Part shown: piece by piece, positions 32,023 to 34,146 of the stretch
Numbering within the stretch: position 1 is the first letter of the stretch
Layout: every line of letters starts with the position of its first letter
Source: Geothrix sp.
GTDB lineage: Bacteria; Acidobacteriota; Holophagae; Holophagales; Holophagaceae
Reading direction: 5' to 3'
Assembly (NCBI RefSeq): GCF_030219325.1
Contig: NZ_CP126625.1
Location: forward strand, 980,857 to 1,044,856
Length of the DNA: 64,000 bases
Translations under genes and position numbers: made by a program
The notes under the pieces: generated by a model
Database searches by the model: none
What the model was told of the DNA's origin: nothing
The model's input: only the letters and a program-made list of their open reading frames with translations

Positions 32023-33237
32023 ATGCCGTCTCGCCGCCTTCTGGTCCTCATCCTGCTCGGGTTCGCCTCGGGGCTGCCCCTGTTCCTGACGGGGTCGACC
32101 CTGAAGTTGTGGCTGACGGACGAGGGGCTGAGCCTTGGCACCATCGGGCTCTTCAGCTTCGTGACCCTGCCCTACAGCCTGAAGGTGTTCTGGGCGCCCT
32201 TCCTGGACCGCTACGCCCTGCCAGGGCTGGGTCGACGGAGAGGCTGGATGCTGCTCATGCAGGTCGGCATGGCTGTGGCCCTGTTCCTCCTGGCCCGGTC
32301 ACAACCCCGCCTGGACCTCTACCGCGTGGCCGTACTCGCCCTGGCGGTGGCCGTCACCAGTGCCACCTTCGACATCGCCGTGGACGCCTGGCGGGCGGAA
32401 GCCCTGGAACAGAAATTCCTGGGCCTGGGCAACAGCATCCACATCACGGCCTACCGCGTGGCCATGCTGGTGAGCGGCGGGTTGGCGATGAGCCTGGCCC
32501 AGTTTTTCGGGTGGCGGACCAGCTACCTGCTGATGGCTTTCCTGACCTGTCTCGGGATGGCGGGCACTTGGCTGGCGGTCAATACAGATGCCGTGGCCCA
32601 TGCGCCCCGCACCCTGCAGGAGGCGGTCGTGGGGCCCATGAAGGATCTGCTCCGGCGCCGGGGCATCTGGCTGCTCCTGGCCTTCACGGTGTTCTACAAG
32701 CTGGGGGACTGGCTGGCCGAGGCCATGACCATGCCCTTCCTGCTGCGGGGCATGGGCTTCACGAAGCTGCAGATCGGCACCGTGCAGAAGACCACGGCCA
32801 TGGTGGCCATCATCCTGGGGGGGCTGATCGGCGGCTGGATGCTCATGCGCATGAGCCTCAGAAAGGCGCTGTGGATCTGCGGGTTCGTGCAGGCTGGCAG
32901 CATCCTCGGCTTCTGGGCCATCTCCCTGCTGGGCCGGCACCTGCCCCTGCTCGTGGCGGCGAACACTCTGGAGAACCTGGCCTATGGCATGGGCGGTAGC
33001 GCCCTGGTCGCCCTGCTCATGGGCAGCTGCAACCGCACCTATACCGGCACCCAGTACGCCCTGTTCAGTGCGCTGACGGCGCTGCCCCGGACGCTCTTCG
33101 CAGGGATGACGGGCTTCATGGCGGACTGGTACGGCTGGAAGCTCTACTTCCCCGTCTGCGCGGCGGCGGCCATCCCTGGCTTGCTGTTGCTGCTGCTCTG
33201 GGACCGCTGGGGGCTCCCCGAAGCGCCCGAGTCGTGA
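32023..33237 (+). CDS. AmpG-like MFS permease (muropeptide/PAT family)
   Basis: 404 residues with 12 hydrophobic segments. The opening (LILLGFASGLPLFLTGSTLKLWL) and the charged motif TFDIAVDAWRAEAL in the fourth to fifth helix are those of AmpG and acetyl-CoA (PAT) transporters. AmpG imports anhydro-muropeptides for cell-wall recycling and, with beta-lactamase regulators, links to resistance. The substrate here is inferred only from family. ATG 32023 is the first good start. An inverted-repeat element begins about 10 bases after the stop codon. Confidence 0.88.
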   Translation: MPSRRLLVLILLGFASGLPLFLTGSTLKLWLTDEGLSLGTIGLFSFVTLPYSLKVFWAPFLDRYALPGLGRRRGWMLLMQVGMAVALFLLARSQPRLDLYRVAVLALAVAVTSATFDIAVDAWRAEALEQKFLGLGNSIHITAYRVAMLVSGGLAMSLAQFFGWRTSYLLMAFLTCLGMAGTWLAVNTDAVAHAPRTLQEAVVGPMKDLLRRRGIWLLLAFTVFYKLGDWLAEAMTMPFLLRGMGFTKLQIGTVQKTTAMVAIILGGLIGGWMLMRMSLRKALWICGFVQAGSILGFWAISLLGRHLPLLVAANTLENLAYGMGGSALVALLMGSCNRTYTGTQYALFSALTALPRTLFAGMTGFMADWYGWKLYFPVCAAAAIPGLLLLLLWDRWGLPEAPES

Positions 33238-33247
33238 CAAAGTCGCT

Positions 33248-33519
33248 TAGAGTGCCTAACAAACCCCGACGAGGCCGCGATGAAGCCAGGCAGGATGCAC
33301 CCCAAGGAAGGGCCCGCGGGGCAACGTGGTTCGTTGTTCAAGGGACCTGACGCCGCGGGGCGCCTGCCTGGCTTCATCCCTCCGGGCGAGGGGCGGCGGG
33401 CGTCGCGATGCAGCGTCACGCTCGTCGCGCGTAGTACCCGCTACGCTTCGACTCGCGTTCCTCGCCTCGCTCGCCCGGCGACCCTCGCGCGACCACGTGG
33501 GGGTTTGTTACGCACTCTA
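33248..33519. repeat. Element of about 270 bp with terminal inverted repeats
   Basis: The ends are 20-base inverted repeats with 19 matches: TAGAGTGCCTAACAAACCCC at 33248-33267 and its complement at 33500-33519, where one base differs. Inside lies a second perfect 16-bp inverted repeat, GATGAAGCCAGGCAGG (33279-33294) with its complement at 33363-33378, and a 6-bp hairpin at 33429-33446. There is no open reading frame of its own with family sequence. It fills the space between the permease gene and the next promoter. It resembles a non-autonomous mobile element. The ends also recall integron attC core boxes (GCCTAAC and GTTACGC), although the length is greater than usual. Confidence 0.75.
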
Positions 33520-33534
33520 TACTCCGGAGGTTCC

Positions 33535-34146
33535 GTGATCCGTCCGCTGCTCTGCCTGACCGCCCTGTCCCTGCTTGCCCAGGGCCCGCCCCCCGTCAAG
33601 AAGCCGGTGGCCGAGTTGCCCACGGCGCCTCCCATCAGCTCGAATCCCATCAAGGAGCTGGTCCGGGCGGACCTGGGCGAAGCGGAGACCGGCACGCCCG
33701 AGGCGCTGACCGCCTCGCTCTACGCGTTCATCTCCGGCCCGAAGGACCAGAAGCGCAGCATCGAGAAGATCCGCGCCCTGTTCCACCTCCAGGCCCGCCT
33801 GGCGGTGGCGGCCAAGCACCCCGAGAAGGGCGCCTTCATGCGCCCCATGGATCTGGAGGCCTTCCTGGCCTTCGCGATTCCCCAGTGGGAGAAGGGTTTC
33901 TACGAGAAGGGCACGGCGGTGACCGTCACGAAGCAGGAGGGCATCGCCCAGGTCTGGTCGCCCTACGAGATCCGCCTGGAGGCGGACGGCCCCGCGCTCT
34001 ACACGGGCACCAACGCCCTGCAGTGCGTCTTCGACGGCAAGCGCTGGTGGATCATGCACCTCGCCTTCCAGAGCGCCCCCACCGAGGCCCTCGCGGCCAC
34101 GCTGGACGCACCCAGGAAGCCCGCAGCGGACCAGCCGAAGAAGTAG
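33535..34146 (+). CDS. Secreted protein with NTF2/SnoaL-like fold, function unknown
   Basis: 203 residues from GTG 33535, which follows GGAGG and starts a short signal peptide (VIRPLLCLTALSLLAQGPPP). The mature part has a helical front and a beta-rich back ending VWSPYEIRLEADG, YTGTNALQCVFDGKRWWIMHLAFQSA, which is the pattern of SnoaL-like/DUF4440 proteins. No catalytic residues stand out. The larger frame starting at 33280 is noise from the repeat element. A probable promoter lies in the right end of that element (TATACT at about 33518). Confidence 0.75.
   Translation: MIRPLLCLTALSLLAQGPPPVKKPVAELPTAPPISSNPIKELVRADLGEAETGTPEALTASLYAFISGPKDQKRSIEKIRALFHLQARLAVAAKHPEKGAFMRPMDLEAFLAFAIPQWEKGFYEKGTAVTVTKQEGIAQVWSPYEIRLEADGPALYTGTNALQCVFDGKRWWIMHLAFQSAPTEALAATLDAPRKPAADQPKK

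Follow-up and report, generated by a model that had tools for sequence, protein, structure and literature searches.

A palindromic MITE-like element of Geothrix and its close relatives, with arms that probably co-change by template switching

The window analysed here is a stretch of 64,000 nucleotides from Geothrix sp. (contig NZ_CP126625.1, positions 980,857 to 1,044,856), and within it a foldable sequence lies between an AmpG-like MFS gene (32023-33237, PF07690) and a gene of 203 amino acids with no Pfam match (33535-34146). A preliminary description placed this sequence at 33248-33519; comparison with other copies moves its borders to 33250-33517. Its outer inverted repeats (33248-33279 and 33488-33519) are 32 nt long and 88% complementary, and the pairing extends inwards to about 33 nt per arm with a few mismatches. 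Within the window the terminal 16-mer, with up to three mismatches, occurs at these two sites only, against 0.1 occurrences expected. The terminal repeats and the perfect inner pair of 16 bp that were first noticed are both real, the latter joining 33279-33294 to 33363-33378. Folded as single-stranded DNA, the + strand reaches -102.8 kcal/mol (z = -10.1 relative to shuffled sequences), and in the consensus fold a terminal stem closes two inner arms. The features are as follows, with the evidence for each in brackets.

33250..33517, + strand: MITE-like element, GAG...CTC, 268 bp, in which no gene of its own was found (copies in its own genome and genus; empty site elsewhere)
33247..33249, no strand: left target-site duplication, TTA, which has decayed in comparison with its right counterpart (position of the GAG anchor; consensus CTNA/GAG, 87 copies)
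33518..33520, no strand: right target-site duplication TAT, decayed (consensus CTC/TNAG, 87 copies)
33249..33264, + strand: terminal stem, left half, 16 covarying pairs, containing the attC-like GCCTAAC (inverted repeat; covariation)
33503..33518, + strand: terminal stem, right half, containing GTTACGC (inverted repeat; covariation)
33279..33294, + strand: inner stem, 5' side of the perfect 16-bp pair (inverted repeat; covariation)
33363..33378, + strand: inner stem, 3' side of the perfect 16-bp pair (inverted repeat; covariation)
33387..33395, + strand: second inner arm, 5' side, CGAGGGGCG, pairing with 33479-33487 (mutual information; pair counts)
33479..33487, + strand: second inner arm, 3' side, CGACCCTCG (mutual information; pair counts)
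33429..33446, + strand: small hairpin GCGTAG...CTACGC within the second arm (pair counts; fold)

The element had also been thought to supply the promoter of the next gene (33535-34146). No sigma-70-like site was found, and two further facts count against this idea: the GGAGG ahead of that gene is not part of the element, and in other Geothrix genomes the two neighbour genes adjoin without it.

Copies, insertion sites and identity

The closed 3.73-Mb Geothrix genome (G000) holds at least 12 copies, eight of which, counting the window copy, match that copy at 88-100% identity along most of its length; these copy numbers are lower bounds. Relatives turn up in nearly every Geothrix genome (44 of 47) and extend to five further genera of the family Holophagaceae. 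Genome searches found the element in no other family of the class, and plasmid, phage and viral collections gave zero matches. Size variants share the same ends and include deletion derivatives, ten of them of 49-63 bp. The core is well conserved among copies while the arms drift, differing from copy to copy yet staying complementary within each copy. Related subfamilies end in GGAGCCTGTCC or GGAGCTGGAACGG, and these families were left out of the pair counts given below because their ends align poorly to the main family. Copies sit near gene borders in every orientation relative to their neighbours; among 88 copies, with rough gene calls, the layout of the neighbouring genes is tandem in 33 and 15 cases, convergent in 15 and divergent in 25. 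The sequence is neither single-copy nor always tied to one gene, nor does it lack covariation, any of which would have spoken against a mobile or structured element.

Several copies carry additional sequence. An extra hairpin module of 42 nt in L095, missing from its ortholog L039, recurs reversed and at a different place in L175; another copy, L017, also has an extra hairpin module inside, and longer modules of about 95-150 nt lie within L145 and L150. In L018 (688-990) the beginning of a further copy (TAGGAGCCTGTCCCAGTATTCGAAAGCCCCGC) comes immediately after a copy of the second subfamily, which may represent a tandem or nested insertion. L016 and L104, whose flanks are 80-83% identical and which apparently occupy one site in two genomes, belong to different subfamilies and lie in opposite orientation; replacement or independent insertion may account for this. 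One copy has a SAM riboswitch (RF00162, 81 bits) in its vicinity, at L073:508-611 on the - strand.

The copies are inserted between genes at CTNAG and flanked by a target-site duplication of 3 bp, TNA. Anchoring 87 copies on GAG...CTC gives the flank consensus CTNA/GAG...CTC/TNAG, where the slash marks the border of the element, and exact TNA repeats flank 21 of these 87, whereas permutation yields 8.7 and, in 1000 rounds, never more than 18. The anchor failed for five copies and was misplaced in a few (e.g., L032, L062 and L089), errors that can only weaken the statistic. Among short derivatives (up to 119 bp), exact repeats flank 8 of 11 (p = 0.0017). A duplication of TA or of 1 bp had been considered and was dropped for TNA once the copies were anchored on GAG/CTC. 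Empty sites are found as well. At the window site, GTCG-TTCT-CTCCGG replaces the element in G013 (L124, L130), and in G002, G003 and G009 the two neighbour genes stand side by side with the element absent. The site occupied in L054 and L093 is empty in L029, which reads GAAG-TAG-GGGTATCC as compared with GAAG-TAA-element-TGA-GGGTATCC, and this fits a duplication of 3 bp.

The preliminary description had left three options, a MITE, an unusual attC site of an integron and a structured RNA, and the first of them stands while the other two, discussed below, do not. The copies are dispersed, non-coding and shorter than about 600 bp, with terminal inverted repeats, a target duplication of fixed length, empty sites, no internal transposase gene and short deletion derivatives of 49-63 bp. 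We consider it probable (at roughly 0.66) that the element is a non-autonomous, MITE-type DNA transposon native to Geothrix and close genera, the arms of which change together by template switching. Its spread would be the work of a transposase that inserts at CTNAG and leaves a TNA duplication. Three transposase families were searched (PF13340, PF01609 and PF01797). A scan of the closed genome with the end pattern returned only pairs spaced about 270-315 bp apart and single ends, and no transposase with these ends; the IS5-type loci (PF13340 and PF01609) across the genus do not carry them, and PF01797 (Y1_Tnp, RAYT) has no match in the element's own genome and one in the 16 Geothrix genomes searched. 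A 3-bp TNA target duplication is the pattern of the IS1031 group of the IS5 family, and a kinship suggested by these repeats is a lead.

Covariation, arm change and core inversion

The covariation among copies is strong. Over all helices of 65 distinct copies, 97.2% of the cells in the pair counts pair, and changes on both sides are found in 338 cells, where shuffles give 88 and sliding the partners gives 32 at most; 15 of the 16 pairs of the terminal stem have changed on both sides. Mutual information, with no structure supplied, recovers the same pairing partners.

Comparison of flanks yielded sets of orthologous copies, and it is at these fixed sites that the changes can be followed. In seven orthologous sets 30 arm pairs have changed, and in 17 of them one Watson-Crick pair has been replaced by a different one, when about 1.2 such cases would be expected; one set from four genomes (L057, L090, L171 and L179) shows several compensated changes at a single site. 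Borrowing of the arms from another genomic copy was rejected for L061, the arm sequence of which has exactly two occurrences in 47 genomes, namely its own two arms; the matching base must thus have been sourced from the partner arm. In addition, the core of about 230 bp is reversed between the arms at two sites (L035/L056 and L054/L093), with flanks and arms in register, while the remaining orthologous sets of the same family keep a single core orientation.

Template switching between inverted repeats is reported to homogenise their arms and to invert the spacers between them (PMC8604942); compensatory changes in hairpins are a further reported outcome (PMC8794818). Both recognised footprints, arm homogenisation and core inversion, are present here, and by analogy with those cases they suggest the switch itself. 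During replication, the polymerase would jump from one arm onto its partner, so that one arm is rewritten from the other, and sometimes the spacer would be copied backwards, inverting the core. The reported inversions involve spacers of a few bases (PMC8604942), as opposed to about 230 bp here, and it would fall to the inner stems to bring the arms into contact across this distance. It also counts against a MITE shaped by template switching that the conservation of the core among copies exceeds what a purely passive repeat would need.

The main rival of template switching is selection for the DNA fold. The element would be the same MITE, with arms that stay complementary because folded DNA (a hairpin or cruciform) is needed, for example for recognition by a transposase or a host protein, so that compensatory mutations are selected. 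Such selection would give much of the same pattern, since it accounts for pairing kept in all helices, for the lack of bias between G.T and A.C mismatches described below, and for a core that is conserved while the arms drift; by itself it leaves the flipping of the core at fixed sites unexplained, and diverged but pairing arms would need a transposase indifferent to sequence, of which none is known here. We regard it as possible, at clearly lower odds than template switching. A related and more doubtful idea is that the whole transposon family is recognised by the folded shape of its DNA instead of its end sequence, through an enzyme acting on GAG/CTC-tipped hairpins at CTNAG; were it true, arm sequences would be free to drift provided that pairing is kept, and selection on the invertible core would be for its fold.

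Strong covariation and a stable fold are also what a structured non-coding RNA, or an RNA-level regulator spread to many loci, would display. Selection at the RNA level tolerates G.U and does not tolerate A.C. The arms contain 15 G.T and 21 A.C mismatches, and rare variants over all helices amount to 72 G.T and 87 A.C, whereas a tRNA control from the same locus collection (acceptor and T stems) contains 14 G.T and no A.C; the difference between arms and tRNA is significant by Fisher's test (p = 9e-5), with cells that are not fully independent and a small tRNA sample. Because the mismatches show no excess of G.U, they point clearly to pairing being kept in the DNA and not in an RNA of the + strand. 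Rfam, at gathering and at relaxed thresholds, has no match to the element, its copies are found in all orientations relative to the adjacent genes, and a single site can hold the core in either direction, all of which makes the RNA reading very unlikely. If template switching is the cause, the strong covariation would be mainly a mutational by-product of palindromic DNA, not the sign of a functional RNA.

Integron-like ends

The attC-like boxes at the ends of the element had suggested a search for an integron integrase, and there is one in the same genome, at 714363-715301 (463 bits, NCBIfam cut-off 265). It belongs to a chromosomal integron at about 707-715 kb (L386:982-9302). The cassette array beside the integrase counts no fewer than 12 repeats, each about 142 nt long, and these hold attC sites of 124 bp ending in GCCTAAC...GTTAGGC. 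Integrase matches above the cut-off occur in most other Geothrix genomes searched. The suspicion of a link to attC thus had a real basis, since the genome's own attC sites end in the very boxes that the commonest arms of the element contain. Set against the attC pattern RYYYAAC...GTTRRRY, the GCCTAAC of the window copy fits an R'' box, but its GTTACGC misses the exact GTTRRRY; most other copies carry GTTAGGC as their right box. An unusual or enlarged attC moved by the integron integrase is nevertheless scarcely credible, as the likeness to the integron region is confined to these 7-base boxes. The element forms a continuous stem of about 270 bp, without the inner L boxes, spacer and extrahelical bases of the attC layout; AAC/GTT varies among copies, and the related subfamilies end in sequences of their own. 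Its copies are scattered, the window copy lies outside any cassette array, and their TNA borders lie about 5 bp outside the boxes. Judged by its sequence, the element is not an attC.

Just as improbable is the reading that the element is retained between genes because it acts as a bidirectional transcription terminator or insulator, a role that the constant proximity to gene borders would suit and that would also yield symmetric mismatches through selection on both transcribed strands, since the arms lack a terminator-like stem (a weak internal one is all there is), convergent gene pairs are not enriched (15 of 88), and the corresponding gene pairs of related genomes lack the element.

Implications and known systems

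This family preserves a natural record of how bacterial palindromes homogenise their arms and invert their spacers, and its many copies and orthologous sites make such events countable. It also shows that a mobile DNA repeat can give rise to the strong base-pair covariation that is often read as proving a functional RNA. The two can be told apart by comparing G.T with A.C mismatches, a simple check that could be extended to other candidate RNAs built from repeats.

Among known systems, REPIN/RAYT elements share the dispersed, gene-less intergenic palindromes; unlike them, the Geothrix element has target duplications, and its own genome is without a Y1_Tnp match. With the IS1031 group of the IS5 family it shares the 3-bp TNA target duplication, while an IS1031-like element with the same ends was not found in the genome or genus (end-pattern scan; PF13340/PF01609 loci). 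The attC sites of its own genome are likewise palindromic and hairpin-forming and share the end boxes GCCTAAC...GTTAGGC, but they are 124 bp long, stand in an array beside the integrase, differ in internal sequence and have no TNA duplications. There is also a likeness in kind to Chunjie of Geobacter uraniireducens and other prokaryotic MITEs, which are short and non-coding, with terminal inverted repeats, target direct repeats, dispersed intergenic copies and size variants with the same ends (PMC10969869). The terminal repeats of the MITEs described there are conserved in each family, whereas those of the Geothrix element vary by copy and match within a copy, and orthologous sites show its core in reversed orientation. 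Template-switch mutations at short inverted repeats show the same arm identity, spacer inversion and instant compensatory changes (PMC8604942, PMC8794818); the repeats in the published cases are short and lie in yeast genes and rRNA genes, and here the setting is a mobile element whose spacer, in the two cases of inversion, measures about 230 bp.
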